Below, one piece after another: positions 3,256 through 24,048 of a stretch of DNA of 64,000 nucleotides. The DNA is taken from NCBI RefSeq assembly GCF_021533215.1, contig NZ_JAJNKA010000005.1, forward strand, positions 310,001 to 374,000, given 5' to 3'. The DNA is from Portibacter lacus. GTDB taxonomy: Bacteria > Bacteroidota > Bacteroidia > Chitinophagales > Saprospiraceae. The stretch's first letter is position 1, and each line of letters opens with the position of its first letter. The translations under genes were made by a program, and so were the position numbers. The notes beneath the pieces are model-generated. The model saw only the letters and a program-made list of their open reading frames with translations. It was not told where the DNA came from and did not search any database.

Positions 3256-4278
3256 TTATGCCCAAACTTTACAACCTTCTGTGCAATTAGTGCATATTTC
3301 GATCTGATCTCGGCCCAATAAAATATCACTTCGGAAGTTTTGGTAGGCTTCACCTTGCCATAATTCTTTAAAGCTTTGTTTTTTCAAATCGCCTAATTTG
3401 AAAGTTGCATCTTTATCGAAACAGCAAGGGACTACGACTCCATCCCATGTAATTACACAAGAATTCCAGAGTTTCCAGCAATGGTTAAGTAATTCATTTT
3501 TCACTACGAATTTGCCGTCTTCGTTTTCACGGTATCGTGCATACTTATCGATCGTAGGAATTAAAGGGTTTCCATTTTCGTAGTCATAGACTTGAGCGGT
3601 TTTTAATTTCACTTCGTCTATTCCTATCTCTTTAGCAAGTTTGTATATTTCTGGAATCTGGTGTTCATTAGGTTTCACAACGAGAAACTGGAAAATGGTG
3701 TGTGGATGTTTCGCACCAAGTTTTTCTTTCCATTTCACAAGATTTCTAGCCCCAGCAAGTACATTTTTCAGGTTTCCTTCTTTTCGGTATTGCTCATAGA
3801 CCTCTTGAGTGGTTCCATCTACTGAAATAATAATTCGATCCAGTCCTGATTCGATTGTTTTCCGACAATTTTCATCATTAAGAAAATGACCGTTAGTAGA
3901 AGTAATGGTGTAGATGCCCTTCTGATTAGCATACTTTACCATGTCTAAGAATTTTGGATTAACGTAGGGTTCACCTTGAAAATAAAAGATGAGGTACATT
4001 AATTCCTTATACATTTCATCTATGGTATCTTTAAAGAAGTCTTCTTTTAGATTACCTGTAGGTCTTGAAAATGCACGCAATCCACTAGGACATTCTGGGC
4101 ATCTCAAGTTGCACGCTGTAGTTGGTTCTACCGAAATAGTGAAAGGCATTCCCCACTGAGTAGCCTTCCTAGTATATTTTGTATAGTAAAAAGAACTTAA
4201 TACTTGTGCGGCATTAAATAATTTTCGAGGAGTTAACTTGGTTAGAAATCTCTTAGTATCCTTTGCGTAAAAACTCAT
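3256..4278 (-). CDS. Radical SAM/SPASM-domain protein
   Basis: The 340-residue protein carries the radical SAM cluster motif CNLRCPEC (Cys56, Cys60, Cys63), which binds a 4Fe-4S cluster and cleaves S-adenosylmethionine. A SPASM-type C-terminal region follows, with cysteines in LNHCWKLWNSC, VVPCCFD and a final CTNCTEGC (residues 329-336), consistent with auxiliary iron-sulfur clusters. Proteins of this layout modify peptides, proteins or cofactors; the substrate here is unknown and no short precursor peptide is seen next to it. The start overlaps the end of the DinB-like gene by 4 bp (ATGA type), so the two are translated together. Confidence is high for the family and low for any specific role. 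Confidence 0.88.
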   Translation of the reverse strand: MSFYAKDTKRFLTKLTPRKLFNAAQVLSSFYYTKYTRKATQWGMPFTISVEPTTACNLRCPECPSGLRAFSRPTGNLKEDFFKDTIDEMYKELMYLIFYFQGEPYVNPKFLDMVKYANQKGIYTITSTNGHFLNDENCRKTIESGLDRIIISVDGTTQEVYEQYRKEGNLKNVLAGARNLVKWKEKLGAKHPHTIFQFLVVKPNEHQIPEIYKLAKEIGIDEVKLKTAQVYDYENGNPLIPTIDKYARYRENEDGKFVVKNELLNHCWKLWNSCVITWDGVVVPCCFDKDATFKLGDLKKQSFKELWQGEAYQNFRSDILLGRDQIEICTNCTEGCKVWA

Positions 4279-4796
4279 ACACCGTAGCGATCTTTTAGAA
4301 TATTGACATGATACTTACAATGACCAGAAATGAAGTAACCAAGCGTTCTTGCGGAAACAGAATATCCACTGGCAACTCCTATTTTATCAAGATCTTGTTT
4401 TCTTAGCATGCTAAATAATATAATATTTGCACTTCTTAAATGATCGAAGCATTGGATAAGTTCACTCAATGTTGTTTCATCTACATTCACTTCCGCCATA
4501 TATTCATCTTGATCGAATCCTGGAAGCTCCTGCGTTTCTCCTCGAGAGATAGCTAACGCTCTGTAGCTGAAAACCATTTCGGTGTCAATGATATGGAGTA
4601 GAACCTGCTTAACAGACCACTTTCCTTCTTGATATTGGTAGTTAGCCTTCTCTAGAGGTATTTTCTTAAATAGATCCAAGGCATATTTCTTCTCATTTCT
4701 CAGAGTAGGAAGAAGGTCTTTGTCTTCTAAAGTGTCTATATATCCTTTATAGAAAACGGGATATTCGTCGTCATTAGGTTTAAAATGGTATTTCAT
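4275..4796 (-). CDS. DinB-like (YfiT/DUF664 type) four-helix protein
   Basis: The 173-residue protein matches the DinB superfamily. It has an N-terminal arm, then the helical segment KWSVKQVLLHIIDTEMVFSY with the first metal-ligand His, and a C-terminal GHCKYHVNILKDRY segment with two more His residues. Together these give the three-histidine metal site typical of the family. Some members are thiol-dependent S-transferases (for example bacillithiol transferases) and others are uncharacterised. It is the first gene of a two-gene unit and overlaps the radical SAM gene by 4 bp. It is divergent from pth, with about 100 bp between them. Confidence 0.82.
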   Translation of the reverse strand: MKYHFKPNDDEYPVFYKGYIDTLEDKDLLPTLRNEKKYALDLFKKIPLEKANYQYQEGKWSVKQVLLHIIDTEMVFSYRALAISRGETQELPGFDQDEYMAEVNVDETTLSELIQCFDHLRSANIILFSMLRKQDLDKIGVASGYSVSARTLGYFISGHCKYHVNILKDRYGV

Positions 4797-4898
4797 ACAA
4801 CGAAGGTAACAACCATGTGATCAATTTCCTAATATCTCCAACCTTGGAACTCTTTGGTTTAATTATTGTGTTACCATCGTTTACAGATTACAGATGAT

Positions 4899-5516
4899 AT
4901 GTTTCAATTTATTAATAATTTCTTTAACCGAAAAAGAGAGCGTAAAAAGCCTGATCCGATGAAATATTTAGTAGTGGGCCTAGGAAATATGGGGCCAGAT
5001 TATGATGGTACGAGACACAATGTTGGCTTTGAAGTAGTGGATTATCTTGCAGAAAAATTTAATGTCCAGTTCAAGAACGATATGTTAGGTGACCTTGCAG
5101 AATTCAAACACAAGGGAAGGACTATTATCCTTTTAAAGCCTTCTACCTATATGAATAGAAGTGGAAAAGCGGTGAATTATTGGTTACAGAAAAAGAAAGT
5201 TAAGAACAGTAATCTATTGATCGTTCTTGATGATTTAAATCTGCCTTTCGGTCGGATTAAGATTAAACCAAAAGGAAAAAATGGTGGTCATAATGGCTTA
5301 AAAGATATCGACCAAATACTAGGTGGCAATCTATATGCAAGGCTAAGAGTAGGTATCGGAAGTGAATTTCATTCAGGACAACAAGTTAATTTTGTGCTAG
5401 GGAAGTGGGATTCAGGTGAGAAAAATCAGCTACCGGAGATTATTGAAAAATCAGCTAATGCTGCATTAAGCTTTACGACTATAGGGATTAATCACACCAT
5501 GAATGAGTACAACTAG
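4899..5516 (+). CDS. pth: Peptidyl-tRNA hydrolase with short basic N-terminal extension
   Basis: Pth cleaves the ester bond of peptidyl-tRNA released from stalled ribosomes. The sequence shows GLGNMGPDYDGTRHNVGFEV with the catalytic His, KPSTYMNRSGKAV, VLDDLNLPFGRIK with the key Asp, and KGKNGGHNGLKDI. The canonical domain begins at an internal Met (ATG at 4959). I start the gene at ATG 4899, which adds a 20-residue basic leader (MFQFINNFFNRKRERKKPDP), because similar basic or amphipathic leaders occur on Pth in other Bacteroidota. The 4959 start cannot be excluded, and an upstream TTG at 4866 is unlikely. The protein would be 205 residues, slightly longer than the usual 185-195. Confidence 0.93.
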   Translation: MFQFINNFFNRKRERKKPDPMKYLVVGLGNMGPDYDGTRHNVGFEVVDYLAEKFNVQFKNDMLGDLAEFKHKGRTIILLKPSTYMNRSGKAVNYWLQKKKVKNSNLLIVLDDLNLPFGRIKIKPKGKNGGHNGLKDIDQILGGNLYARLRVGIGSEFHSGQQVNFVLGKWDSGEKNQLPEIIEKSANAALSFTTIGINHTMNEYN

Positions 5517-5522
5517 GGATGT

Positions 5523-5850
5523 AATGATCTGATAGTATGACCTCCATTCATCCTATCCATGATCATGTTTTACTTTGCAACAACCACATTTTAAAAAAAG
5601 AAGGAGTTACAAATTCGAAGAACCCAAAAAACATTCATAGGCTCAGTGAAGCTGAAACAATGAAGTTTTTCTACTCAGAAGTACAATGATCTGATAGTAT
5701 GACCTTCAGTCATCCTATCAATGATCATGTTTTTACAACGTACCGATCACAAGAAACCAAGGCTATATAGAGTTACGAAATCAAATAACCCATAAAATAT
5801 TAATCGGCTCATTAAAGATGATGCGATGAAGTTTTTAAGCTATTTAAAAG
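5523..5850 (+). repeat. Two-copy imperfect direct repeat, each copy headed by a long hairpin
   Basis: This intergenic stretch (5517-5863) between convergent genes holds two related units of about 162 bp, starting at 5523 and 5685. Each starts AATGATCTGATAGTATGACC and carries further matching blocks (for example GAGTTAC, AACCCA, ATGAAGTTTTT). At each head is an imperfect hairpin, 5524-5566 and 5686-5728. Its arms are ATGATC/GATCAT, GATAG/CTATC and ATGA/TCAT. The stem is identical in both copies while the 7-nt loop differs (CCTCCAT against CCTTCAG). No ORF was recognised. It may act as a bidirectional terminator or be a REP-like mobile element. Confidence 0.7.
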
Positions 5851-5863
5851 TTATCAGACAGAA

Positions 5864-8800
5864 CTAGAAATCCATTCCGAAAGATAGATATAGTCGTGGT
5901 TTCTGAACGATTCTTGTTTCGACTCCCCAGCCATAATCTAATTTAACAAAGTAGCCGAAAAGTGAAGTTCGTGCACCAATACCATATCCGTAGATTAATG
6001 GATCTCTAAAGTATTTTACATTGACAACTACCGTCGGAGGACTCTCCAATGTCAAGGTATTGATGATATTTTCATCACTAAATGGAGTTAATCCATGCCA
6101 TGCCGCACCAGCATCAAAAAATGCTGTCAGTTGAAAATTACGGATCATTTTATACTTAACACGACCTGCACTTAACATGTTAAAAATAGGCAGACGAATT
6201 TCTGAATTAAATAAAGCGAAAGAGGTCCCATTTCTTGAGTTAAACCTGAATCCTCGCAAATTCGCAGCCACAGCGGTATAAGCATAATTGTTCTGCGGAG
6301 TAGGAGTGTCTTGTGCGAAAACAGGCCCCAGCCAACTCTCGACACCGCCTAAATAATAAAGTGTTCTTTCTGATCCGAAATTGGTAGCAGCAGCGAAACG
6401 ATTCGCCCATACACCATATTTTCCGATAGGAATGTAATGTCTAATATCTGTTCCCACTACAGTCATGAAAGCCTTGCTCAGATTGAATTCGATAGGAGGA
6501 CTTAAGTTAATATTCATACTATTCACTCCTTCTACATAAAACTTATATCTCGTTCCATTTTTGATATTGACATCAATATCGAAGGAGTTATCATATATAT
6601 ATTCTAATTTTAAACCTAGTCTTTGCCCAGTGATTTTCGGAGCTTCGAGATTCGCTTGCTCACTCACGAGGTCGAAAAAGTTGTCTGTTCTATAAGTTAA
6701 ACTTGCGCGAACACTTGTGAAAAAATCAAATGGGTAGCGCAGTTGATACATCGCAATAGTGGTATTCTTCTGCGTACTTAGATTAGGATTCGCAAAGAAT
6801 TCAGGACGCTCGGCAATCGCTCGTCTATAGAGCGCATATCTTTTGTCTATCCTTTTCTTTTTATCATCAAAAGTTAGAAAAGCTTCAGATCCATTTAGTG
6901 AAGTGGGAAGTCGAATTCCTCCTTCGAAAGCATAATCTTCAAAGATGTCTTTAACATTTGCCTTTACCAAATAGCCGAACGGCTGGTGCTGATAAGATTC
7001 TTGTCGATCTCCTGCATAGCTATCTAATCCTTCGAATAATACACTATTATCCATTCTGGAAACGACATCATCTATACGGAACCTTAACCTTGCTGCTGTT
7101 GCTCTACTGTTTACAAACTTGACAATGTTATTCTTAGCTTTTTCTTGAATAAGAGGCTTTGTTGCAGTCTGAGGAGAAAAAATATTGAAGTCTAAAGTTG
7201 GTTCTTCAGATTTTGCTTTCTCGTTGAATTCGGTCTGGAAATAATATTCAGGATCTATAAAACGACTACTCTCTATATGGACAACATCAGGCTCGTTATC
7301 ATTAATATTTACATCAACTTTCTTTAATCCTTTAGCAACTCTTTTGAATTCTGTGACAGCTGGATTTTCTACTTTTGAAAAATCAATACTATCTCTAACG
7401 ATTGCATCTTTTCTGCCATATCGTTCTACATATAAGTACTTGCCCTTTTCACCATCATGCTCCGAAATGTTACTAAGCTCATTCGAATTATAATAAGCTT
7501 GTGGCAGAACACCTAGTTCTTCTATCTGTGCAATTTTTCTATTGACGATTCCACTTCCGCCTGATAAGTAGGCTATTTTATTACCAGATAAAGCGATAGG
7601 CTGACGATCATTTTCACCTGGTGTCTTACTAATCCGATAGAGCTTATAATCACTGGAATCAATTGCTAAGAAAAACACATCGAATTTGGCGATAGGAAGA
7701 ATGGTATCTAGTTTTCGGTCTATGATGTAATCATCAGTCCTGTTTGACGAAAAAAGGATTCCTTTCTTACCAAGGAGAGTAGCACTTTTAACATCTAGAT
7801 CATCATAAAAATCATTGATAATCCGAGTAGACTGCCTATTTCTAATGTTGTATAAATAAAGATCGGAGAATCCATCTGTAGTAGCTGAAATAATCATTTC
7901 TTCCTGATTTATATAATCTGCACTATAAACCCTACGGTATTCAGGTGCGAAAAGATCATTAATAACTTCATCTGTTTCTAGATTAATTCTCTTTTGATAG
8001 ACGATGTCTCTTTTCTCATATATGAGAGAAATTTCACTTCCACTTTCAGACCAAGAAACGACAGGATAATCATAATCGGTGATCTCGAAAGGGTTTTTCT
8101 TTCCTACTTTCAGCACTGAAAATTGAGCATCTTCTTGAAAATCATAAACGAACACTCTGTATTTTCCGATTCTATTCTCCACAAAAGATGCATAATTCCC
8201 ATCAGCGCTGATTTTGATATCTGAAATTTCAGAGCGTTTCGCAATCTTTGCTTTTAGAACATCTTCGGCATCTATGGGATTCAATTTAGGATTGAGATCT
8301 TTATATTGCTGTAAATAATATGCATACCAGTCTTCTCTTAATTGTTTAAAAGGAACGCCGATCACATAGATAAACGCCGCTTCCATATTTCGATTAATTC
8401 TAGTAAGATATAACAGATTCGAAATTGAAGATTTACCATAGGTATCTCCTATAAATTTCCAGAATGAATGTCCAGCGAGTTGTGGGTGGTCTTTGCTTAA
8501 GCGTTTGAAATTTTTATATTTTCGCTTTTCACGGGTCAGGTAATGCCTTAGATTATCGTCTGCGGTTTCATCCCACTCAGTTTCTACATATTTACTTATT
8601 CCTTGCCTATACCATTCAGGAACATTAAACATAACGGCATTCTGAACAATTTCTTGAAAAGAATTTCCGTAGAGCATTGAATTAATGAAAACTTCAGCAA
8701 CTCCTTGGCGAATTTGTTTTCTAAGGTTGTTGTGGTTACCATCGAAGTAAACAAATACCTTATTATTAGCCACCTTAGTTCTTCCAGCAACCGTTATAAA

Positions 8801-12454: not shown

Positions 12455-13909
12455 ATGTTAAATCTAAGATCAGTAAGCCTATTCGTAATTCAGCTAATCC
12501 TGTTAAGTAGTTGTACTAATACTTCTAATAGTAGTTCAGAAAAAAACATAACGGAAGACCGACCGAATATAATCTATATTCTCGCTGATGACTTAGGATA
12601 TGGAGACCTGAGTTTTACTGGGCAACAACATTTTAGTACACCTAACATTGACAAATTAGCTAAAGGTGGAATGTTTTTCACACAACATTATGCGGGTGCA
12701 ACCGTATGTGCTCCATCTCGTTCTGCTTTAATGACAGGATTGCATACTGGTCACACTTATATTCGTGGTAATAAAGGTGTAAAACCAGAAGGTCAGTATC
12801 CTATAGATGATGAGGCGCTTACAGTAGCGGAAATATTGAAAAAAGGTGGCTATGTAACTGGAGCATTTGGAAAGTGGGGCTTAGGGCCAGTGCAATCAGA
12901 AGGCGATCCTAATCGACAAGGAATTGACCAGTTTTTTGGGTATAATTGCCAGACATTGGCCCATAATTACTATCCTTTTCATCTTTGGGATAATCAAAAT
13001 AAAGTAATATTAGAAGATAATTCAGGAGATAGTCAAACGACATATGCACCGGAAGTTATCCATCAAAATGCACTTTCATTCATTGAAAAAAATAGAGACA
13101 CTAGCTTTTTTATGTTTTACCCTTCGGTAATTCCTCACGCAGAATTATTAGCGCCTTCAGCGGAAGTAGAACCATTTATAGGAAAAGTGGGTCAAGAAAA
13201 ACCATATAAAGGTACAGAAGATGGTCCTCGATATAGATTAGGAGGTTATGGTTCTCAAGAACTACCACACGCAACATTTGCTGCTATGGTTACGATACTA
13301 GACAAGCAAGTAGGCGATGTAATAAATAAGCTAGAGCAGCTGGGAATTGCTGAGAATACCTTGATCATCTTCACGTCAGATAATGGTCCACACAAGGAAG
13401 GAGGAGCGGATCCAGATTTTTTTAATAGCAATGGTCCATTTAAAGGATATAAAAGAGATTTATACGAAGGAGGGATTCGGGTGCCCACTATAGCTTATTG
13501 GCCTAAGAAGATTAAAGCTGGAACTAAAAGTGATCATATATCAGCTTTTTGGGATTTCTTACCGACAGCTTGTGATATTGCGAATCAACCTAAGCCTAAG
13601 AACATAGATGGAATCTCTTTTTTACCTTCCATGTTAGGAGAAGAGCAAAAAACTCATGATTATCTTTATTGGGAATTCCACGAACAGGGCGGTAAGCAGG
13701 CTGTAAGAATGGGAAAGTGGAAGGGTATTAAATTGAAAATGGCAAATAACTTTGACGCACCGATTGCGCTGTATAACCTGGAAATGGACCTAAGAGAAGA
13801 GAACGATGTTTCTGCAAATAATCCGCAGATAGTTGAAGAGATGAAACGTATAATGAAAAAAGAGCACGAGCAATCTGAAGTGTTTTCATTTGCCTTCGAA
13901 TCATCATAA
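12455..13909 (+). CDS. Exported S1-family sulfatase (arylsulfatase-type)
   Basis: The 484-residue protein has a lipoprotein-type signal (ILLSSC, Cys20). The metal-binding ADDLGYGD segment is at about 44-51. The sulfatase signature VCAPSRSALMTG has Cys85, the residue expected to be oxidised to formylglycine, and there is a GKWGLG segment and TSDNGPH. Length and motifs fit arylsulfatases of family S1, which remove sulfate esters from glycans or small aromatic compounds in the periplasm or at the surface; the substrate cannot be assigned. The gene opens a six-gene co-directional cassette and is separated by 98 bp from the haem-dehydrogenase gene. The maturase that makes formylglycine is not in the window. 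Confidence 0.9.
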   Translation: MLNLRSVSLFVIQLILLSSCTNTSNSSSEKNITEDRPNIIYILADDLGYGDLSFTGQQHFSTPNIDKLAKGGMFFTQHYAGATVCAPSRSALMTGLHTGHTYIRGNKGVKPEGQYPIDDEALTVAEILKKGGYVTGAFGKWGLGPVQSEGDPNRQGIDQFFGYNCQTLAHNYYPFHLWDNQNKVILEDNSGDSQTTYAPEVIHQNALSFIEKNRDTSFFMFYPSVIPHAELLAPSAEVEPFIGKVGQEKPYKGTEDGPRYRLGGYGSQELPHATFAAMVTILDKQVGDVINKLEQLGIAENTLIIFTSDNGPHKEGGADPDFFNSNGPFKGYKRDLYEGGIRVPTIAYWPKKIKAGTKSDHISAFWDFLPTACDIANQPKPKNIDGISFLPSMLGEEQKTHDYLYWEFHEQGGKQAVRMGKWKGIKLKMANNFDAPIALYNLEMDLREENDVSANNPQIVEEMKRIMKKEHEQSEVFSFAFESS

Positions 13910-14007
13910 TAAGCATGGGCATTGCGTTTCATTCCATTTATTATTCCATATTTTAGAACATTGATCATGCAAATTTTCCTAATTAATGGCTACATTCGGA
14001 AGTTTAC

Positions 14008-16671
14008 ATGAAAACTTTCAAGTCCAAACCCAGATTTATGCCAGCTTTAAAATTGTCCTTTTTTCTGTTACTCATCATTTTATTAAATATCCAATGCGAA
14101 GAAAAACCCGTTCCAACACCAATTACGGATAAAATTTTGATGGACAGTATATCTATTCCTGAGGGATTTGTGATTGAAAAATTATATACACCTAGCGATC
14201 ACGAACAAGGTTCTTGGGTGAGCATCACAAAAGATGATACAGGTCGATTTTACGCTTCTGATCAATTTGGAAAGATATACAAAGTAACGGTGCCCGACAC
14301 CATTAATCAACTTGATAGCGTCGATGTAGAATTACTAGATCTTAATATTGGTCAGGCTCAGGGCTTGCTTTGGCACCGTAATGTTTTGTACGCTTTAGTT
14401 AATTCAATGATCGACAAAAATATTCTGATAAATAGTGGTTTTTACAAAATTACAGATGAAAATGGAGATGGAGAATTTGATAAGGTTGATTCTATCAGGA
14501 TGTTTCCTGGTGAACATGGAGAGCACGGTCCACATAATATATTGCTAGGGCCAGATGAGGAGTCACTCTATATGGTTTTTGGAAACATGGTTGTTGTTCA
14601 TGATGACATGAAAAGTTATGTCCCTAAAGTATGGGAGGAGGATAACCTCTTACCCATTATCAAAGATCCAAGTGGCCATGTTAATGAGATAACTGTTCCA
14701 GGTGGTTGGGTTGCAAGGACTGACCTGGAAGGAAAAGAATGGGAGATTATTAGTGTGGGAATGCGGAATACGTATGACATCGCTTTTAACCAAGATGACG
14801 AACTCTTTGGATTCGATTCTGATATGGAATATGATATTGGAATGCCGTGGTATAGACCGATCAGATTAACACATCTGACTAAAGGATCAGAGTTTGGGTG
14901 GAGAAAAGGAACTGGAAAATTTAGAGATTCTTATCCCGACAACTTGCCAGGAATTGCGAACCTTGGTCAAGGATCTCCGACGGGACTTATGAATGGAGAA
15001 GGACTTAGATTCCCTGCCTATTATCAAAATGGGTTATTTCTATTTGATTGGAGTTATGGAACGATGTATTTCGCCAGTTTAACACCGAATGGAAGCAGTT
15101 ATAGTGCAAAAGTAGAGCAATTTTTATCTGGAGTTCCACTGCCATTAACGAACGGTATTATCGGAGACGATGGTGCTATGTATTTCTGCACGGGAGGTAG
15201 AGATTTAAGTTCGGGCTTTTATAAATTGACCTACGAAGGTGAATTACCTCATGAAGTCATTGCAATAGAACCGAATAGAAAAGGTGTTAAAGAAAGAAAA
15301 TTGAGAAATGAATTAGAAATGCTTCAGGTAGAAAAAGCACCCGAAAAGCTAAATTTTATTATCAAGAATCTAGATCATAAAGATCGATTTATCAGGTTTT
15401 CTGCTCGAACTGCGCTTGAAAATCAAGACTATGCACTATGGAAAAACAATATTGATGGAAGGAATTCTTTTCACAAGTCAATTGCATACGCGATAGCAAT
15501 GGCTAGACAAGGTGAAGATAGTGATAGATTAAAGGCTGCAAAAAAGTTAATAGAAACAGATTATGCTAAGTTGTCAGATTCCGAGAAGATTGATATTACC
15601 AGGGCGATCGAATTACAATTAATCAGAATGGATGCTCCACTTCCTAATGATGTTCGAGAAGAAATAGCAGCATTCTTAAGACCATTCTACTTGGAAAGTA
15701 CTGATGTGCTCAATAAAGAACTATGCAAGGTCTTAAGTTATCTTCAGGATGGTGATATCATCGAGGCTACCTTGGAAAGGATGGAGGTTGATTCCGTCTC
15801 TGCTAATCAAAAAGCAATTTATTTATCCGAAGATATTACTAAGCGTAGTGAAATGTATGGCAAAGATGTTGAGAAAATGCTCTCTAATATGCCTAATCCA
15901 CAAAACATTAGCTATGCGTTATCACTAAGTGAATTAAAGGAAGGGTGGACACCTGAACTTAGAAAACGATACTTCAACTGGTTTTATAAAGCGCTAAAAA
16001 AATCTGGAGGACATTCATACATCCAATTCATAAGGACTATTCAAGAAAACGCGCTCAAGAATGTTCCAGTGGAGGACCGTCAATATTTTGAGGCTTTAGC
16101 GAGTGAAGCATTTGATGAAGCGAATGATATCATGAAAGATGTGGTTCAGCCTAAGGGACCAGGACAAAACTGGACAGTAGAGAATGTCGTGAATGCTTAT
16201 GCTAAGAATATAAAAGGTGTGGACCATAAACGTGGTGAGAATTTATTCAAAGCATCTCTATGCGCTAGTTGCCATAGTGTAAATGGACTTGGGCGAAATA
16301 CAGGACCAGAGTTAACCAGAGTAGGCACTCGATTTTCGTTAACCGATCTGGCCACTGCGATCGTGAGTCCGTCGGCTACCATTTCTGACCGGTTTCAATT
16401 TACGGAATTTCATTTAACAGATGATAGAACAGTTGCAGGGTTGATTACAAAGGAAAATGATTACGAATACATTTTAGCCACGAATGCTTTTTCACCTGAG
16501 TTAAAAACGAGTATCAGAAAGAAGAATGTCATCAGTCAAAACAAAGCTTCCTATTCTTCTATGCCTCCAGGCTTGTTGAACAGGCTTAACGAGAAAGAAC
16601 TGAGTGATTTAATAGCTTACTTAATGGCTGGTGGAAATGAGCAAAATAGAATTTATAGAAATAGTAAGTGA
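14008..16671 (+). CDS. PVC-type haem-binding dehydrogenase (propeller plus C-terminal cytochrome c)
   Basis: The 887-residue exported protein has a hydrophobic leader ending near residue 30 (IQCEEK, a possible non-canonical lipobox). Residues about 45-430 resemble a soluble glucose/sorbosone dehydrogenase-like propeller (for example VGMRNTYDIAFN, EFGWRKGTGKF). A helical middle region spans about 440-740. A c-type cytochrome domain has CASCH (Cys752, Cys755, His756) followed by GRNTGPELTRVGTRFS, typical of the putative haem-binding domain first noted in Planctomycetes and Verrucomicrobia. It probably oxidises a substrate outside the cytoplasm and passes electrons to its own haem. Its neighbours encode a second haem protein and a DUF1501 protein, the usual company of this family. 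Confidence 0.85.
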   Translation: MKTFKSKPRFMPALKLSFFLLLIILLNIQCEEKPVPTPITDKILMDSISIPEGFVIEKLYTPSDHEQGSWVSITKDDTGRFYASDQFGKIYKVTVPDTINQLDSVDVELLDLNIGQAQGLLWHRNVLYALVNSMIDKNILINSGFYKITDENGDGEFDKVDSIRMFPGEHGEHGPHNILLGPDEESLYMVFGNMVVVHDDMKSYVPKVWEEDNLLPIIKDPSGHVNEITVPGGWVARTDLEGKEWEIISVGMRNTYDIAFNQDDELFGFDSDMEYDIGMPWYRPIRLTHLTKGSEFGWRKGTGKFRDSYPDNLPGIANLGQGSPTGLMNGEGLRFPAYYQNGLFLFDWSYGTMYFASLTPNGSSYSAKVEQFLSGVPLPLTNGIIGDDGAMYFCTGGRDLSSGFYKLTYEGELPHEVIAIEPNRKGVKERKLRNELEMLQVEKAPEKLNFIIKNLDHKDRFIRFSARTALENQDYALWKNNIDGRNSFHKSIAYAIAMARQGEDSDRLKAAKKLIETDYAKLSDSEKIDITRAIELQLIRMDAPLPNDVREEIAAFLRPFYLESTDVLNKELCKVLSYLQDGDIIEATLERMEVDSVSANQKAIYLSEDITKRSEMYGKDVEKMLSNMPNPQNISYALSLSELKEGWTPELRKRYFNWFYKALKKSGGHSYIQFIRTIQENALKNVPVEDRQYFEALASEAFDEANDIMKDVVQPKGPGQNWTVENVVNAYAKNIKGVDHKRGENLFKASLCASCHSVNGLGRNTGPELTRVGTRFSLTDLATAIVSPSATISDRFQFTEFHLTDDRTVAGLITKENDYEYILATNAFSPELKTSIRKKNVISQNKASYSSMPPGLLNRLNEKELSDLIAYLMAGGNEQNRIYRNSK

Positions 16672-16752
16672 TCGCGCGGTATAGATTTTTTAATTTTTTA
16701 ATTTCGAAATGTAAGAACATGTATTTATCAAATGAATATCGAGTAGTTTAAT

Positions 16753-19578
16753 ATGGATTCAATATTTCAAATCTTAGGTCGGTTGCATCCTCTAATGGTC
16801 CATTTTCCTATTGGCTTGCTTATCATTGCCTTAGTGTTTGAAATATTTACGCTGAAAGGAAAGCGCAAAAGTCTTCGAGATGGAATTACTTTATTGGTTT
16901 ACTTTGGAACTGCAGCAGCAATCTGCTCGTCGATCTTTGGATATATTTTAAATGTAAATGAGGCTTATGGAGGAGAACTTGTGCTTCAACATCAAAAGTT
17001 GGGCATTGCTACAAGTATTCTTTCTAGCATAACCGCACTTTTAATCTACTTTTCCGCTAAGAATAATTATGAAAAGCTGCTCTGGTATAGGATCATGCTA
17101 TTATTAACCGTCGTTTCTGTATCCATAACGGGTCATCTAGGTGCTAGTCTTACACATGGTGAAAATTATATTTTCGAATCTTTAGGTGAAGATGATGAAA
17201 ACTATGACCTAGAAAAATTAAGTGCTACCCTTGCAGAATTAAACGGTCTGGATTCTTTATCCGAATCCCAACAGGAAAATCTTAACCTTGATGTCAGAGC
17301 CATTTTAGCACATAATTGCTACCAATGTCATAGTGAATATAAAATGAAGGGCGAGTTAGCTTTGGACAGTAAGGAAGCTGTTTTCAAAGGTGGAGAAAGT
17401 GGAAAAGTCATTGTTTCTGGGTTGCCTAACGAAAGCGAACTATACAAAAGAATAACCCTTCCTTCTAATCATAAGGACGTCATGCCTAAGAAAGGCAAAA
17501 CGCTTAAAAAATCAGAAATTGAGCTCATCCAACTTTGGATTACACATGGTGCTTATTGGTCGGATCGTGCGGTGAAAGTTTTTGATGAAGCACCATTGGC
17601 ATTGAGTAAGCCGAACTTACCTGCAGAGCGTAAAGAGTCCCATCCTGTAGATAAAATAATGGGTCAATATTTCGAGGAGAATAATATAACTTGGCCCGAA
17701 GTTATTGACGATAGAGCTTTTATTCGACGAACTTACTTGGATCTTTTAGGTCTCTTGCCTAGTCCTGAAGAGGTAGCCGAGTTCATATCGGACACTCGCC
17801 CTGCTAAGCGCGAACAACTTATAGAAGAATTGCTCCTTGATCAAAAGAATTACACAGAGCACTGGCTTAGCTTCTGGAACGATTTATTAAGAAATGATTA
17901 CAGCGGTCCTGGATTTATAACCGGAGGCAGAAAGCAGATCACTGATTGGCTATATGCTTCATTAATGGATAATAAATCCTATGATCAGATGATGAAAGAG
18001 TTGGTTAATCCTAGTAAAGAATCGGAGGGATTTATCAAAGGCATTCAATGGCGTGGAGTGGTCAATGCTAGCCAAAGAACTGAAATGCAAGCGGCTCAGA
18101 ACATTGGACAGTCCTTAATGGGTGTCAATGTTAAATGCGCTTCCTGTCACAACAGTTTCGTTATTAATGTCACCTTAAAGCAGGCCTATGGATTTGCCTC
18201 CATATTTGCGGATACTTTAATGGAACTTAATCGATGTGATAAACCAACTGGCGTATTGTCAAAAGTTAGTTTCTTGTATGGAGAGCTCGGTTCTGTAGAT
18301 GCACCAACAGTGGATGAACGCCTAGAACTATTGTCTGAAGTAATGGTAAAACCAGAAAATGGACGATTGTACAGAACATTCACTAACAGAATTTGGAAAA
18401 TCTTGCTAGGTAGAGGAATAGTGGAACCCGTAGATGAAATGGACAACCCGCCATGGAATGAAGACTTGCTGGACTGGTTAGCATCGGATTTCATAGATTC
18501 TGGTACAGATATTAAGCACTTGCTTAGAACGATCATGACTTCTAAGACCTATCAATTAAAAGCTTCAAAATATAAGTCTCAAGAGGAGTTAAAGATTGGC
18601 ACTTATGTGTTTAATGGTCCTGTAATGAGAAGAATGAGTGCTGAACAATTCTCAGATGGAATCAGCCAGGTTATTTCACCGATGTTCTATGGAGTTGCTT
18701 ATGATCCCAATGATGAAGGACTTTCAGCAAGACGTATCTGGCATCGGGAAATCAAGTTTGACCGAGACGTTTTGCCCGAACCAGGAAAAAGATATTTCAG
18801 ACATCAATTTGAATTATCCAACAAAGAAATTATTAGTGCTAGAGCTTTAATTTCTGTGGATCATTCCTTCGTTTTATACATTAATGGTCAGCGAATTGCA
18901 GAAGGTCAAGATTGGCGAAAGGTTCATAAGGTAGATGTCTTAGAATATGTGAAACCAGGAAAAAACCTGATCGCCATAGAGGCAACAAATGAGGGAAATT
19001 TAGCGAATCCTGCGGGTGTACTTTTCGCAATGAAAATCGAAAATGAAGCTGAACATCTGATAGAGGCTAACACTTCTTGGATAAGTACAGACCAAGTCCC
19101 TAATCCATCTTGGACCAGTATAGATTACGATGCGAAGGACTGGAAAAATGTGAAAAATTACGGATCTAATAATTGGGACAAGTTATTGGATTTCAAATTC
19201 GAAGAAGATTATAACACATTTACTCGGGCAAGCTTAGTCAAGCAACATCCGTTTCTGAAAGCCTTAGGCAGACCAAGTAGAGAAAATGTAGCCACCAGTA
19301 GAGAAAGTCAAGCTACATTACTTCAAGCACTAGAGTTGACTAATGGAGAGTTCCTAAGTGCAACCTTAGAGGAAGGCGCGGAAAAGTGGCTAGATGAATA
19401 TGGAGAAGATGCTGAATTAATTGTTGAGCAATTATTCCAGAAGGTATTGTCTAGAAGTCCCACCGCTTCGGAGAAAAAAACCATGTTGAATGCGCTCGGA
19501 GATCAACCTAATAAGGAATCCATACAAGACCTTTTTTGGACAATTTTAATGCTGCCTGAATTTCAATTTATAAGTTAA
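16753..19578 (+). CDS. Membrane-anchored DUF2231/PSCyt1/DUF1549/DUF1553 cytochrome protein
   Basis: The 941-residue protein starts with about four transmembrane helices (residues about 10-140, DUF2231-like, including HPLMVHFPIGLLIIALVFE). A Planctomycete-type cytochrome domain PSCyt1 follows, with CYQCH (residues 189-193). A DUF1549 region (DDRAFIRRTYLDLLGLLPSP onward) contains a second CxxCH, CASCH at 462-466, and DUF1553-like sequence runs to the C-terminus. Between about 650 and 810 there is an inserted beta-rich segment resembling a jelly-roll or glycan-binding module (FVLYINGQRIAEG, VKPGKNLIAIEATNEG). The function is unknown; two haem sites and the membrane anchor suggest electron transfer at the inner membrane. 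It is followed 8 bp later by the DUF1501 gene, its usual partner. Confidence 0.83.
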   Translation: MDSIFQILGRLHPLMVHFPIGLLIIALVFEIFTLKGKRKSLRDGITLLVYFGTAAAICSSIFGYILNVNEAYGGELVLQHQKLGIATSILSSITALLIYFSAKNNYEKLLWYRIMLLLTVVSVSITGHLGASLTHGENYIFESLGEDDENYDLEKLSATLAELNGLDSLSESQQENLNLDVRAILAHNCYQCHSEYKMKGELALDSKEAVFKGGESGKVIVSGLPNESELYKRITLPSNHKDVMPKKGKTLKKSEIELIQLWITHGAYWSDRAVKVFDEAPLALSKPNLPAERKESHPVDKIMGQYFEENNITWPEVIDDRAFIRRTYLDLLGLLPSPEEVAEFISDTRPAKREQLIEELLLDQKNYTEHWLSFWNDLLRNDYSGPGFITGGRKQITDWLYASLMDNKSYDQMMKELVNPSKESEGFIKGIQWRGVVNASQRTEMQAAQNIGQSLMGVNVKCASCHNSFVINVTLKQAYGFASIFADTLMELNRCDKPTGVLSKVSFLYGELGSVDAPTVDERLELLSEVMVKPENGRLYRTFTNRIWKILLGRGIVEPVDEMDNPPWNEDLLDWLASDFIDSGTDIKHLLRTIMTSKTYQLKASKYKSQEELKIGTYVFNGPVMRRMSAEQFSDGISQVISPMFYGVAYDPNDEGLSARRIWHREIKFDRDVLPEPGKRYFRHQFELSNKEIISARALISVDHSFVLYINGQRIAEGQDWRKVHKVDVLEYVKPGKNLIAIEATNEGNLANPAGVLFAMKIENEAEHLIEANTSWISTDQVPNPSWTSIDYDAKDWKNVKNYGSNNWDKLLDFKFEEDYNTFTRASLVKQHPFLKALGRPSRENVATSRESQATLLQALELTNGEFLSATLEEGAEKWLDEYGEDAELIVEQLFQKVLSRSPTASEKKTMLNALGDQPNKESIQDLFWTILMLPEFQFIS

Positions 19579-19586
19579 CCGTAACC

Positions 19587-21020
19587 ATGGAATCAAAATA
19601 TAACAAAACGAGGAGGGATTTCTTAAAAGAGATGAGTGCGGCGAGTCTTGCAGCGGCGGCAGTGAGTATTCCTGGAGTAAGCTTTTTAAGCTCTTGTGAT
19701 AGCCCTGCTAAGATGGCTGCTTCAGCAGATACCGTGATTCTATTATGGATGGCAGGAGGAATGGCACATACGGAAACCTTTGACCCTAAGGCATATATTC
19801 CTTATTCTAAAGGAATAGAGAGTAAGAAAGTTTTAAGTACCTTCCCTAAGGTTCCTACCATCGTCGATGATTTGTATTTTTCAGAAGGACTTGAAGATAT
19901 CGGAAGCGTGATGGATAAGGGAGCCATTATTCGATCATATAAGTCAGGTGATCTCGGACACATTCTTCATACAAGACATCAATATCATTGGCACACATGC
20001 TATGAACCACCACAAACGGTGCAAGCACCACATATCGGAGCTTGGATCGCAAAAGAACTTGGACCAGCGAATCCAGTTATTCCACCTTTTATTTCCATCG
20101 GGCAAAGATTTACAGTTGGTGAAGCGGACGAATTAAAAGCATTTCACTCTGCAGGTTTTCTTGGATCTGAGTACGGTCCCTTCTTAATCCCAGATCCGAG
20201 CTCAGGTCTTGAGAGTGTTAGACCTCCGAAAGGAATGTCTCTGAAAAGATTCGAAGCGAGATATAAATTGTATAAAGAATTAGCCAGTAAGAATGAGACA
20301 TTGGGCAAAGGAAGTGATTACCAGCGAGAATCATTATCTAGGTCAATGGAACAATCTTACCGCTTATTGAATTCTCCTGAATCTAAGGTGTTTGACCTAT
20401 CGCAAGAAAGCAAAGAAGTATATGATAGTTATAACACAGGAAGATTTGGCTTGGGTTGTTTACTTGCTAAAAGATTAGCTCAGAATGGTGGTCGATTTAT
20501 AAGTGTATCCACTGAATATGAGCCATTTTTAGGTTGGGACACACATGAAAATGGTCATCTGAGAGCGAAAAAGATGAAGCAGTATATAGATCGGCCTATT
20601 GCCAATTTAATAAGAGATCTTGATCAGTCTGGACACCTCGATAAAACACTTATCATTCTTGCGAGTGAATTTAGTAGAGATGCTATTTTAGAGGGAAGAC
20701 CGGGCGAAAAAGTTAAAGATCAGGTCAATCAACCAGATGTGATCGAAGATGAAAAGTTTTATGGAATGCACAGACACTTTACAGATGGTAGTTCAATCTT
20801 GATGTGGGGAGGAGGCATCAAAAAAGGGCTGGTTTATGGCAAAACAGCAGATGAAAGGCCATGTTCTTCCATCGAGAATACGGTAGTTATCGATCAAGTT
20901 CACCAGTCCATATATCATGCGCTCGGAATACACCCAGAGACGAATTATAAAATAGAAGGAAGGCCGTTTTACACAACTCCAGATGGCCACGGAGAAGCCA
21001 TTTTAGATTTATTCACATAG
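19587..21020 (+). CDS. DUF1501 family protein (Tat-exported, alkaline-phosphatase-like fold)
   Basis: The 477-residue protein has a twin-arginine leader (TRRDFLKEMS) followed by a hydrophobic stretch and a lipobox-like FLSSC, so it is probably exported folded through Tat and lipidated. The mature part (VILLWMAGGMAHTETFDP at the start; STEYEPFLGWDTHENGH and LIILASEFSRDAILEG later) matches DUF1501, a family related to sulfatases and phosphatases and almost always encoded beside DUF1549/DUF1553 proteins. The biochemical role has not been established. It follows the DUF1549 gene by 8 bp and precedes the DUF1080-DUF6807 gene by 33 bp, so co-transcription is very likely. Confidence 0.88.
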   Translation: MESKYNKTRRDFLKEMSAASLAAAAVSIPGVSFLSSCDSPAKMAASADTVILLWMAGGMAHTETFDPKAYIPYSKGIESKKVLSTFPKVPTIVDDLYFSEGLEDIGSVMDKGAIIRSYKSGDLGHILHTRHQYHWHTCYEPPQTVQAPHIGAWIAKELGPANPVIPPFISIGQRFTVGEADELKAFHSAGFLGSEYGPFLIPDPSSGLESVRPPKGMSLKRFEARYKLYKELASKNETLGKGSDYQRESLSRSMEQSYRLLNSPESKVFDLSQESKEVYDSYNTGRFGLGCLLAKRLAQNGGRFISVSTEYEPFLGWDTHENGHLRAKKMKQYIDRPIANLIRDLDQSGHLDKTLIILASEFSRDAILEGRPGEKVKDQVNQPDVIEDEKFYGMHRHFTDGSSILMWGGGIKKGLVYGKTADERPCSSIENTVVIDQVHQSIYHALGIHPETNYKIEGRPFYTTPDGHGEAILDLFT

Positions 21021-21053
21021 ATACTGAGCCATTTTAATTAAATAGAAAACCAA

Positions 21054-22646
21054 ATGTTTAAAAACTTATTAATTCTAGGACTCGGACTTGTATTGGCTTT
21101 GAATTGTTCAGCACAGTCGGACCTGAAGTTTACCGACTTATTGAACGAGAGCAATCTCGATTCTTGGGATGTACCTGAAGACAACATTTGGTGGTCCATA
21201 GCGGATGGAGTCCTGAATGTAAAAAGCGGACCGAAGAAAAAAGGCTCCATTCTCTGGACGAAAAATACTTACCTAAACTTTGTGATTGAAACTGATTTCT
21301 TGATGGGAGATGGCACAGTAGATTCTGGAATCTTTCTAAGAAGTGAAAAACAACAAGTCCAAATAGGCGAATCAGGTTCTTTGAAGCGAGACATGACAGG
21401 TTCCGTATATATCCCAGGAAAGGGCTATCCAGTAGAAGCTGCTAGAATAAGTGAAATATTGAAGCGAAATGATTGGAATTCGATGAAGGTTATGGTTCTT
21501 GGAAATATATACACCATCTGGGTTAATGAACAGGAAGTTCTGAAGTATGAGTCAGCAGAAACCATAGCAGAAGGACCTATAGGCTTGCAACTGCACCCGG
21601 ATAGAACAATGGAAATCAGTTTTAGAAATTTAAGAATAGCTGAACTACCAAAATCTACATTAGAAGCTAAAATTATGGAGAATAGGATTCAATTAATTCC
21701 TAACAATCAAGAGAAGAAAGTGGATGTTTTTATAGATGGTCAATTTTTCACTTCTTACATTTATCCTAATACGATTAAGAAACCAGTGCTTTATCCATTG
21801 ATTACACCAGAAGGCACAAGAATTACAAGAAATTATCCTTTAGAACCTTCAGCTGGCGAAAGAGTGGATCATCCACACCATGTCGGACTATGGTTTAACT
21901 ATGGTGATGTGAATGGATTAGATTTTTGGAACAATTCAGATGCTATTAAGGAAGAAAAACGATCTGAATACGGGACTATACTTCATAAGTCTGTTAATCA
22001 AATTACGAGTGGTGATGAAGCAGCGTCGCTTGAAGTTACTATGGAGTGGGTTTCACCAGAAGGTAAAGTTCTGATAAAAGAAGACACAAAATTTATTTTT
22101 AAGGGGGAAAATAAAGAATATTCAATCGACAGAATAACTAAATTGACAGCCTTAGAAGCAGTTGATTTCAAAGATAACAAAGAAGGCCTGATCGGAATTA
22201 GGGTGAATAGAGCGCTAGAGCATCCTTCAGATAAGCCTGAAATATTTTCGGACGCTAAGGGCCTCCCGACGAAAGTAGCCGTCTTAAATAATGAAGGTGT
22301 TAATGGAAATTATATCAATGCTGAAGGAATAGAAGGGAAAGCTGTATGGGGGAAAAGATCTAATTGGGTTAACTTAAGGTCGAAAATAGGAGCAGAAAGT
22401 TTATCCCTCGTGATACTTGACCATAAGCAAAATGTGGGCTACCCAACGTATTGGCATGCTAGAGGTTACGGCTTGTTTGCTGCGAATTCGCTAGGTCAAG
22501 CCGCATTTAGTAAAGGCGAAAACGAATTAAATTTTAAATTAAATAAGGGAGAAAGCACAACTTTCAAGCATCAGATCATTGTCGCTAGCAAAGAATTGAG
22601 GAAATCCGATATTGATTCCAGGTTTTTGGAATTTTCAATGAATTAA
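21054..22646 (+). CDS. DUF1080 (3-keto-disaccharide hydrolase-like) - DUF6807 (PmoA-like) fusion protein
   Basis: The 530-residue exported protein has a signal peptide ending near NCSAQS. Residues about 22-205 form a DUF1080 domain (FTDLLNESNLDSWDV, SGIFLRSEK, NDWNSMKVMVLGNIYTIWVN), a concanavalin-like fold linked to 3-keto-glycoside cleavage. Residues about 215-530 match the PmoA-like DUF6807 family (GERVDHPHHVGLWFNYGDVN, AVWGKRSNWVNLR, YPTYWHARGYGLFAANSLG). Both domains occur as separate proteins in glycan-degrading Bacteroidota and Planctomycetes. Here they are one polypeptide placed 25 bp upstream of a Gfo/Idh oxidoreductase, supporting a linked oxidation and elimination of sugars. The exact substrate is unknown. 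Confidence 0.85.
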   Translation: MFKNLLILGLGLVLALNCSAQSDLKFTDLLNESNLDSWDVPEDNIWWSIADGVLNVKSGPKKKGSILWTKNTYLNFVIETDFLMGDGTVDSGIFLRSEKQQVQIGESGSLKRDMTGSVYIPGKGYPVEAARISEILKRNDWNSMKVMVLGNIYTIWVNEQEVLKYESAETIAEGPIGLQLHPDRTMEISFRNLRIAELPKSTLEAKIMENRIQLIPNNQEKKVDVFIDGQFFTSYIYPNTIKKPVLYPLITPEGTRITRNYPLEPSAGERVDHPHHVGLWFNYGDVNGLDFWNNSDAIKEEKRSEYGTILHKSVNQITSGDEAASLEVTMEWVSPEGKVLIKEDTKFIFKGENKEYSIDRITKLTALEAVDFKDNKEGLIGIRVNRALEHPSDKPEIFSDAKGLPTKVAVLNNEGVNGNYINAEGIEGKAVWGKRSNWVNLRSKIGAESLSLVILDHKQNVGYPTYWHARGYGLFAANSLGQAAFSKGENELNFKLNKGESTTFKHQIIVASKELRKSDIDSRFLEFSMN

Positions 22647-22671
22647 TATACAACACATAAAAAATACAAGA

Positions 22672-24048
22672 ATGACTAATCGAAGAACTTTCATTAAAAA
22701 AACAACACTTGCTACAACAGGCGTTGTACTTGGATCATCCGTTATATCAGCAAAGTCATATAGGAATATTATTGGAGCAAATGACAGAGTTGTTCTGGGT
22801 TCAATAGGCATTAGAAGTCGAGGGTATGAATTATTAAAGAGTTTCACAAGTATGTACAATGATAACGTAGTCGTGAAAACGCTATGTGATGTAGATTCTG
22901 ATTTGTTTGCAGAGCGGTTAAAAATAGCTTCAAAGAACCAGAATGGCAATGTGCCGGGAACGGAAACAGATATGCGCCGAATGTTTGAGGATAAAGATAT
23001 AGATGCTGTTGTGAGTGCAGTTCCTAATCACTGGCATGCACTTTCTGCGATATGGGCGTGTCAGGCAGGTAAGCATGTTTATGTCGAAAAGCCAAGCTCA
23101 CATAATGTATGGGAAGGACGGAAGATGGTAGAAGCAGCCAGAAAGTATGATCGAGTTGTTCAAGTTGGCCTTCAGAATAGATCTATTCCGAATGTAATGC
23201 AAGCAATGGAATTCTTACATAGAGGTGGAATCGGTGAAGTCTTTATGGCAAGAGGAACATGTTTCAAACCTAGAGATTCTTTTGGAATATCAGCAGATAG
23301 TAAGCCACCAGCTAATTTGGATTATGATAAATGGTTAGGACCAGCATCTTATCGTGAATACAATGAAAAGCGGGGTCATTACAACTGGCATTGGCACTGG
23401 AATACGGGTAATGGAGATACAGGAAACCAAGGACCACACCAATTTGATATCGCAAGATGGGGATTGAATAAAAAAGTGCATCCTGTGAAAGTCCAGTCTA
23501 TGGGTGGCATATTCGGAATTTCACCACAAGAATGCTCTCAGGAAACACCGAATACGCAAACTTCCGTTTTCGAATATGAAGATGGAAAGATCCTAGAGTT
23601 TGAAACAAGAGGTCGATATACCAATGCCGAGGCACCATTAGGTGTGAAAATTGGTAATTTATTCTTTGGAACTGAAGGTTGGTTAGAAATTAATGGCTCT
23701 ACATGGAAGGCATATAAAGGCAAAGAAACAGAAGCCTTTGCTGGATCAGGAATGGCAGAAGGTGCTGAGGTCGGAGGAGATAGTTCATTTAGAACGGCGC
23801 CGGACAGTAAGGGACACTACGCTAACTTTATTGATAGTGTTCGGTCAGGAAATCGCTTTGATTTGAATTGTGATGTGGAAGTGGGGCATAGATCTACGGT
23901 ACTTCCTTTGATTGCTAATATTGCATATCGAGTGGGTGAAACCCTTAGATTCAATGGTGAATTTGAAGAATTTATCGACAACGAAGAGGCTGATTTGATG
24001 TTAACGAGAAAATATAGATATCCATATATAGTTCCGAAGAATGTCTAG
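22672..24048 (+). CDS. Tat-exported Gfo/Idh/MocA-family sugar oxidoreductase
   Basis: The 458-residue protein has a twin-arginine leader (TNRRTFIKKTTLATTG) and then an NAD(P)-binding Rossmann domain. The family motif EKPSSHNV is at about residue 140. A substrate-binding domain follows with WHWHWNTGNGDTGNQGPHQF, the His/Asn-rich active-site region. Members oxidise a sugar hydroxyl, often at C3, with a tightly bound cofactor when exported. It is the last gene of the six-gene cassette, directly after the DUF1080-DUF6807 gene. Together they could form and cleave 3-keto-glycosides; this is inference from family knowledge and gene order. Confidence 0.92.
   Translation: MTNRRTFIKKTTLATTGVVLGSSVISAKSYRNIIGANDRVVLGSIGIRSRGYELLKSFTSMYNDNVVVKTLCDVDSDLFAERLKIASKNQNGNVPGTETDMRRMFEDKDIDAVVSAVPNHWHALSAIWACQAGKHVYVEKPSSHNVWEGRKMVEAARKYDRVVQVGLQNRSIPNVMQAMEFLHRGGIGEVFMARGTCFKPRDSFGISADSKPPANLDYDKWLGPASYREYNEKRGHYNWHWHWNTGNGDTGNQGPHQFDIARWGLNKKVHPVKVQSMGGIFGISPQECSQETPNTQTSVFEYEDGKILEFETRGRYTNAEAPLGVKIGNLFFGTEGWLEINGSTWKAYKGKETEAFAGSGMAEGAEVGGDSSFRTAPDSKGHYANFIDSVRSGNRFDLNCDVEVGHRSTVLPLIANIAYRVGETLRFNGEFEEFIDNEEADLMLTRKYRYPYIVPKNV

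Follow-up and report, generated by a model that had tools for sequence, protein, structure and literature searches.

The genes BT2157–BT2160 of Bacteroides constitute a 3-keto-glycoside pathway (family names are those of NCBIfam). BT2157 is called a 3-ketotrehalose hydrolase (PMC9007349; the cited papers are represented here by excerpts). In lactose use by Caulobacter, LacABC is a periplasmic dehydrogenase, and a DUF1080 hydrolase is proposed to cleave its 3-keto product in the periplasm (PMC9007349). This is a precedent for the splitting of a keto-glycoside by DUF1080. The window analyzed here, a 64,000-nucleotide stretch of the 6.31-Mb genome of Portibacter lacus (Bacteroidota, Saprospiraceae), contains a block of six genes, g1–g6, in which a DUF1080 domain is found together with a sulfatase, haem proteins, DUF1501, DUF6807, and a Gfo/Idh oxidoreductase. 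The sister species Portibacter marinus belongs to the same genus.

Several of these families are on record from other bacteria. Rhodopirellula baltica has 41 copies each of the PSCyt2 and PSD1 domains (PMC2754498). Verrucomicrobia PSCyt genes contain rhamnosidase-N-type domains and are surrounded by sulfatases, with no function given in the excerpt (PMC5615132). The "DUF1501 module" is a conserved genomic cluster, preferentially present in species of the Planctomycetes–Verrucomicrobia–Chlamydiae (PVC) group with internal membranes (PMC4452313, PMC4960237, citing Kamneva et al. 2012), and as of 2015 DUF1501 was without any characterization according to the same two excerpts. A DUF1800-DUF1501 pair with a predicted shared operon travels with chitin synthase genes (PMC5122149). 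PSCyt and DUF1501 genes are described as being of unknown function (PMC5615132, PMC4452313, PMC5122149), and the excerpted literature on these families (also PMC5673643, PMC3597751, PMC8857213, PMC10971088, PMC4982196, PMC4960237, PMC11495043) assigns no function by experiment to DUF1501, PSCyt, or DUF6807.

The six open reading frames (ORFs) of the block are co-directional on the plus strand at 12455–24048, with intergenic gaps of 98, 81, 8, 33, and 25 bp. Their order is sulfatase, g2, g3, g4, DUF1080-DUF6807, and Gfo:

g1, 12455..13909, plus strand: exported S1-type sulfatase (Pfam PF00884, 187 bits, with SGSH_C) with a lipobox-like leader
g2, 14008..16671, plus strand: PVC-type haem protein with a C-terminal cytochrome c (Pfam) and a single CxxCH at residue 752
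g3, 16753..19578, plus strand: membrane protein with DUF2231, PSCyt1, PSCyt2 (DUF1549), and PSD1 (DUF1553) (Pfam)
CBM67-like sugar-binding domain in g3, 18781..19179, plus strand: residues 677–809 (phmmer and Foldseek)
g4, 19587..21020, plus strand: DUF1501 protein (PF07394, 241 bits), exported by twin-arginine translocation (Tat); constant neighbor of g3
g5, 21054..22646, plus strand: exported DUF1080-DUF6807 fusion (PF06439, 3keto-disac_hyd, 97.8 bits at residues 26–195; PF14100, 256 bits)
g6, 22672..24048, plus strand: Tat-exported Gfo/Idh/MocA oxidoreductase (PF01408, GFO_IDH_MocA; PF19051)

The six genes, their gaps, and their domain content had been described in an earlier note on this DNA, and ORF calls, Pfam, and NCBIfam agree with that description. 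The exact set and order are unique among the loci examined, while the kind of set is not. Judged from sequence, the block is a new combination of known families, locally assembled from the modules g3–g4, g2, and DUF6807–Gfo that are seen elsewhere. The reading preferred here, to which we give a little less than an even chance, is that separate, reusable modules were put together in this lineage, and that their exported products break down sugar oxidatively.

Comparison with Described Systems

The block resembles LacABC with DUF1080 in the pairing of an exported dehydrogenase with a DUF1080 hydrolase (PMC9007349). It differs in its PVC-type and PSCyt haem proteins, sulfatase, DUF1501, and DUF6807, and in the absence of a GMC dehydrogenase: no Pfam match to one with a gluconate-2-dehydrogenase-type small subunit is present in the six genes. 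With BT2157–BT2160 the block shares a Gfo/Idh dehydrogenase and a DUF1080 protein (PF06439 in g5). However, g6 is below the equivalog cut-off of its best NCBIfam model, BT_2158_fam glycoside 3-dehydrogenase (150.5 bits against 750; the BT_2159 family reaches 31 against 650), and the block adds haem proteins, DUF1501, and the DUF1080-DUF6807 fusion.

PSCyt/PSD genes of PVC bacteria (PMC5615132, PMC2754498) are similar in having PSCyt and PSD domains, sugar-binding domains, and sulfatase neighbors. In contrast to them, g3 belongs to a subfamily from Bacteroidota that is spread between families of this phylum and has its membrane part, DUF2231, at the N-terminus. The "DUF1501 module" is likewise an exported conserved cluster around DUF1501, set beside g3–g4 here at the level of its description. 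In DUF1800-DUF1501 pairs (PMC5122149), DUF1501 also adjoins a large partner, but the partner in the window is PSCyt2/PSD1. The SusC/SusD polysaccharide utilization loci of Bacteroidota share the exported processing of glycans with the block, which has neither SusC/SusD nor a glycoside hydrolase (GH) gene; no SusC-SusD Pfam match lies inside the six genes. The statement of the earlier note that such genes are absent holds inside the block; 18.7 kb further on, however, there begins a locus of rhamnose type that has SusC/SusD, GH106, GH88, and GH31.

Conservation of the Set

The best 80 of 541 g4 relatives, hence the closest ones, were compared by their loci (L037–L116), of which 58 reach 20 kb and the remainder end at contig ends. 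In the available flanks, none of the 80 loci contains DUF6807. A conserved six-gene cassette is therefore rejected, and the conserved order of all six families, by which the earlier note had proposed to judge its own claim, is not seen. Looser sets do recur. The order g3-g4-g2-DUF1080 is present at L108 and L152, and at L077 two genes stand between g4 and g2 in an otherwise equal order. L151 contains g2-g3-g4, and at L052 DUF1080 and Gfo follow directly behind the g3–g4 pair. The distance between g2 and g3–g4 is at most 2.2 kb in L077, L108, L152, and L151.

The g3–g4 Pair and Its Transfer

In 79 of these 80 loci g3 adjoins g4, and the 80th starts 147 bp before g4. Relatives of g4 (E 1e-60) are found in 17 of 395 genomes of the phylum and 12 of 100 genomes of the family, with the window's own counted in both. 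Besides the window host, Bacteroidota with the pair include Algibacter, Polaribacter, Winogradskyella, and Maribacter. Among the 80 loci, g4 shows 79–86% identity to Flavobacteriaceae, and in 9 of the 11 other genomes of its own family only 64–71%; the exceptions are P. marinus (83%) and G427 (82%). The identity of NadA, which flanks the block, is 80–83% in the own-family genomes G158, G447, and G407 and 57–62% in those 14 of the 40 pair genomes in which NadA is present.

A g4 tree was built from 105 rows: the window, 83 g4 ORFs from L037–L116, and 21 loci from L012–L036, with the omission of L013 (a copy of L037) and L016–L018. P. marinus is placed as sister to the window (SH-aLRT 100), in a clade composed mostly of Flavobacteriaceae and Flammeovirgaceae. 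The own family requires seven changes on this tree, at least six of them by supported branches. Together, identities and tree indicate horizontal transfer of g3–g4; the simplest case is one into the common ancestor of both Portibacter genomes.

The neighborhoods of the pair were compared between loci of about 20 kb from 40 genomes and 52 arbitrary 20-kb control stretches from 32 of those genomes; eight pair genomes had no control stretch, and because of the relatedness of the loci the p-values are a guide only. GH78 is present in 13/40 against 0/52, GH106 in 12/40 against 0/52, and RhaT in 7/40 against 1/52. Any of these three rhamnose markers is seen in 17/40 against 1/52 (Fisher p 8e-7). The link to sulfatases drawn in the earlier note finds support here, as sulfatases are enriched near the pair (16/40 against 3/52, p 7e-5). 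SusC is found in 10/40 against 5/52 (p 0.045), and a Tat-type propeller gene in 20/40 against 0/52. A rhamnose marker is present in 22 of the 80 g4 loci and in 20 of the 58 long ones. It takes six changes on the g4 tree, and therefore does not represent one inherited event.

Some genes near the pair vary from locus to locus. The Tat-type six-bladed propeller gene (L091, 11483–12583, and relatives) is near or directly behind g3–g4 in 29–30 of the 80 loci, and it is not beside the g4 of the window. Directly upstream of g3–g4, L116 has genes for gluconate-2-dehydrogenase subunit 3, a GMC oxidoreductase, and an SMP-30 lactonase (3795–7163). A molybdopterin oxidoreductase gene (Pfam) is directly upstream of g3 at L038 (4337–6658), and L059 and L156 look similar by reading. 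Behind g4 at L058 (11772–14416) and L065 (11780–14432) are gene pairs that, by reading, resemble 2Fe-2S and molybdenum hydroxylase subunits.

Domains of g3 and g4

Membership of g3 in the PSCyt/PSD group follows from its PSCyt1, PSCyt2, and PSD1 domains and its two CxxCH haem sites, at residues 189 and 462, both of which are conserved. Its DUF2231 part contains five invariant histidines (12, 17, 80, 128, 135), which could be ligands of b-type haem. On a possible kinship of PSCyt2/PSD1 with DUF1800, the DUF1800 Pfam match on g3 is sub-threshold (22.1 against 26.1), and hhalign detects no homology between g3 and the three DUF1800 proteins of this genome (probability 0.4%).

In a phmmer search, residues 678–809 of g3 match the N-terminal part of a Streptomyces alpha-L-rhamnosidase, 3w5m (E 5e-12, whole sequence), and a Pleurotus lectin. 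For AlphaFold modeling of g3 a 34-row alignment was used (pLDDT 76.9), and the same rhamnosidase and lectin are the top Foldseek matches of its domain, including the L-rhamnose complex 3w5n and the lectin–rhamnose complex 6kc2. Four chains from three other alpha-L-rhamnosidases also match, and GH2-type enzymes score weaker. The domain is CBM67-like; CBM67 binds L-rhamnose, as in SaRha78A. D703, W721, and N746 are all kept in 58 of the 61 rows having the domain, and presumably align with the rhamnose/calcium site of 3w5m. D703 is followed by H in the window; relatives mostly have N, D, or H at that position. Sequence and model comparisons favor rhamnose as the ligand.

All 11 DUF1501 hits of the host genome are on the same strand as, and at most 2.4 kb downstream of, a PSCyt2 hit (8/8) or a DUF1800 hit (3/3). 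The structure model of g4 is weak (pLDDT 56.6, pTM 0.65). By their titles, the 50 listed of its 497 Foldseek matches are chains that we assign to the alkaline-phosphatase superfamily, with LtaP and sulfatases leading; three matches have E <= 0.001, and their TM-scores are 0.37 or less. The single scan made found no viral relative of g4.

The Haem Protein g2 and DUF1080

The assignment of g2 as a PVC-type haem protein in the earlier note holds in part: the NCBIfam model TIGR02603 is matched above its cut-off (82.4 bits against 68.15), but for the N-terminal part the "PVC-type" model TIGR02604 is far below its own (36.8 against 122.2). The 23 g2-type loci compared consist of all 20 other places from the g2 search and L077, L088, and L108. 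All 23 members match both TIGR02603 and TIGR02604 at E <= 0.001; HEAT_2 is matched in three and DUF7133 in four. The closest relative is at L077 (55–56% identity), 2.2 kb from g4. The N-terminal part is probably a propeller, and no propeller enzyme by name is among the 60 listed of 106 PDB matches. A role as pyrroloquinoline quinone (PQQ) sugar dehydrogenase is not claimed for g2: GSDH matched 1 of 23 members, with E 0.005.

In 7 of the 23 loci DUF1080 is the next gene on the same strand after the g2-type gene, with L088 cut at that point and some of the seven from related genomes; anywhere in the control stretches it is seen in 2/52. Pfam confirms the DUF1080 gene in L077, L108, L152, and L254. 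This adjacency supports the combination of a haem protein with a 3-keto-glycoside hydrolase domain that had been claimed from the window, and it suggests that 3-keto-glycosides may be formed by a haem-linked route in addition to those of LacABC and Gfo. The order SusC-SusD-g2-DUF1080 is found at L251, L254, and L257. A recurring catabolic set at L254 (8530–13053) and L265 (8395–12584) consists of g2, DUF1080, DUF4432, a protein of 402–404 amino acids (aa) without any Pfam match, and a sugar-isomerase-like AP_endonuc_2 protein.

The g5–g6 Module and g1

The pairing of DUF6807 with Gfo/Idh in the window recurs elsewhere: 18 of 25 other DUF6807 places have Gfo/Idh at a distance of at most 6 kb, and Gfo is present in 6 of the 52 control stretches. 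L149, also with Gfo/Idh within 6 kb, was chosen for its Gfo and is outside this count. The DUF1080-DUF6807 fusion itself is in none of the 26 other DUF6807 loci and is seen in the window only. G394 (L141) has DUF1080, DUF6807, and Gfo side by side as three separate genes, with an Amidohydro_2 gene behind them. L149 (4740–8630) carries a DUF6807-DUF7133-HEAT-cytochrome c fusion beside another DUF6807, Gfo, and sulfatase genes. The nearest solved structure to g6 is 8tdf, titled "Dehydrogenase".

PF00884 and a Cys-type motif, C-A-P-S-R, read in the sequence, place g1 among S1 sulfatases, the general form Cys-x-P-S-R being what we take as the S1 motif. Its nearest solved structures are 7ana (403.6 bits, named N-acetylgalactosamine-6-sulfatase) and then 7an1 (arylsulfatase).

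The Genomic Site

The six genes exactly fill the interval between NadA and YgjP, which is one variable site. In P. marinus the gene order of the flanks is kept on both sides with 48–95% identity (NadA 95%, YgjP 69%, SerC 82%), and two other ORFs of 417 aa and 270 aa (L244, 9809–11994) are present instead of g1–g6. Since the interval is filled exactly here and by other ORFs there, the six genes look like more than a chance grouping. P. marinus carries g3–g4 on a different contig, which ends inside g3. The two ORFs at its NadA–YgjP site resemble GH16 and SDR proteins by reading of the sequence.

Export signals (Tat leaders, lipobox-like Cys, and leader helices) were read by eye. RR-x-F Tat leaders are seen in g4 and g6, lipobox-like Cys in g1 and g4, and hydrophobic leaders in g2 and g5; the predicted structure model of g3 starts with membrane-length helices. 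A promoter and terminator scan is no better than shuffles (42 against 44.3 and 10 against 9.3).

Proposed Mechanism and Its Alternatives

Beside the observed gene content, modules, enrichment, g3–g4 spread, and domain homologies, we infer the following catalytic steps, electron path, and substrate. The sulfatase g1 would strip sulfate. The haem proteins g2 and g3 would oxidize a sugar hydroxyl and pass the electrons to the membrane, with g3 as a di-haem PSCyt protein anchored via DUF2231 and the DUF1501 protein g4 as its partner. The DUF1080 domain of g5 would cleave the 3-keto-glycoside, and Tat-exported g6, with a bound nicotinamide cofactor and together with DUF6807, may make or reduce keto sugars. 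The 3-keto group might come from g2, g3, or g6, and g6 and the haem proteins are possibly alternative rather than coupled. The earlier proposal of sugar chemistry outside the cytoplasm, in which haem proteins act together with a 3-keto-glycoside hydrolase domain, is supported.

The CBM67-like domain of g3 and the neighborhoods of g3–g4 relatives suggest that the substrate is a rhamnose-containing, often sulfated, glycan. It can be speculated further that the DUF2231-PSCyt-PSD1/DUF1501 pair acts as a haem dehydrogenase, transferable and anchored in the membrane, which grips L-rhamnosyl residues by the CBM67-like domain, oxidizes (sulfated) rhamnose glycans outside the cytoplasm, and delivers electrons to the respiratory chain; we consider this extended proposal rather unlikely as a whole. 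If it is true, the planctomycete-specific cytochromes and DUF1501 would have their first substrate, and glycan loci that work by hydrolysis alone would be joined by a partly oxidative alternative. The main general interest lies in the concrete candidate substrate for PSCyt/DUF1501 that a rhamnosidase-type binding domain and a controlled neighborhood enrichment provide.

A number of results weigh against the oxidative assembly or its rhamnose substrate, in addition to the lack of DUF6807 in the g4 loci. Profile searches near g3–g4 show no enrichment of Gfo/Idh (3/40 against 9/52 in controls; 3/40 against 5/52 for Gfo by single-sequence search) or of PVC-type haem proteins (3/40 against 2/52), and a weak one of DUF1080 (6/40 against 2/52, p 0.066). 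The few Gfo genes in the 80 g4 loci are distant in sequence. Gfo/Idh is thus rejected as a steady partner of g3–g4, and its link to the haem pair in the earlier note is not borne out. The cofactor of Gfo enzymes is a nicotinamide, with no apparent path to haem. Neither g2 nor g5 has a match in the P. marinus genome at E 1e-40, where the best Gfo shows 35% identity to g6. The GC content of the six genes (0.378–0.409) is inside the range of 14 other measured window genes (0.342–0.413), and composition thus shows no sign of recent foreign DNA. Judged by the weak g4 model, DUF1501 would more probably be a partner resembling metal hydrolases than an oxidoreductase. As for the substrate, a rhamnose marker is absent in 58 of the 80 pair loci and within 10 kb of the window's block, and the CBM67-like domain is lacking in 17 of 78 g3 rows. 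The matching Pleurotus lectin has solved structures with melibiose, GalNAc, and glycerol as well, so a galactose-type ligand is possible and the rhamnose reading becomes less probable. The nearest solved sulfatase to g1 is named as a GalNAc sulfatase.

The block might instead be a set of chance neighbors, in which the mobile g3–g4 landed by unrelated exported genes at a variable site, with no common pathway. We regard this as unlikely, though it deserves serious weight: the full set is in no other locus examined (0/80), and P. marinus keeps g3–g4 elsewhere and lacks g2 and g5, with two other ORFs at the site. On the other hand, the six genes share one strand with gaps of 8–98 bp, and the same families reunite in five other loci in different orders. 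It is also conceivable that a nicotinamide-dependent pathway for 3-keto-glycosides, like that of BT2157/BT2158 in Bacteroides, consists only of g5–g6 together with g1, and that the haem genes serve another substrate. The resemblance of g6 to BT_2158_fam and to 8tdf/8tdh, the adjacency of the 3-keto-glycoside hydrolase (KDH), DUF6807, and Gfo genes in G394, and the unenriched Gfo near g3–g4 agree with this. However, haem proteins and DUF1080/DUF6807 do meet, because DUF1080 is behind the g2-type gene in 7 of 23 loci and DUF6807 is found fused to cytochrome c, and such a separation of the two halves is judged quite unlikely.

A different role for g3–g4, the building or modification of a surface polymer or membrane, would make DUF1501 a transferase or hydrolase of the alkaline-phosphatase superfamily and PSCyt its redox or sensing partner. 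LtaP, LtaS, YejM, and PbgA among the Foldseek matches of g4, besides sulfatases, are consistent with this role, as are the company of DUF1501-DUF1800 genes with chitin synthase genes (PMC5122149) and the preference of the "DUF1501 module" for PVC species with internal membranes (PMC4452313, PMC4960237). The enriched neighbors of g3–g4, rhamnosidases and sulfatases, are degradative, which leaves this role improbable.

The Rhamnose-Type Locus Downstream

The rhamnose-type locus of the window extends over 42782–63544. It includes a leader-bearing 710-aa protein (46043–48175), which has no Pfam match at E 0.001. The other genes are for GH31, GH88, GH106, a PL22-like protein, SusD, SusC, and a GntR-type regulator, and the locus continues with an aldolase-SDR fusion, a TIM-barrel isomerase-like gene (sub-threshold match), and a gene that is kinase-like by reading.

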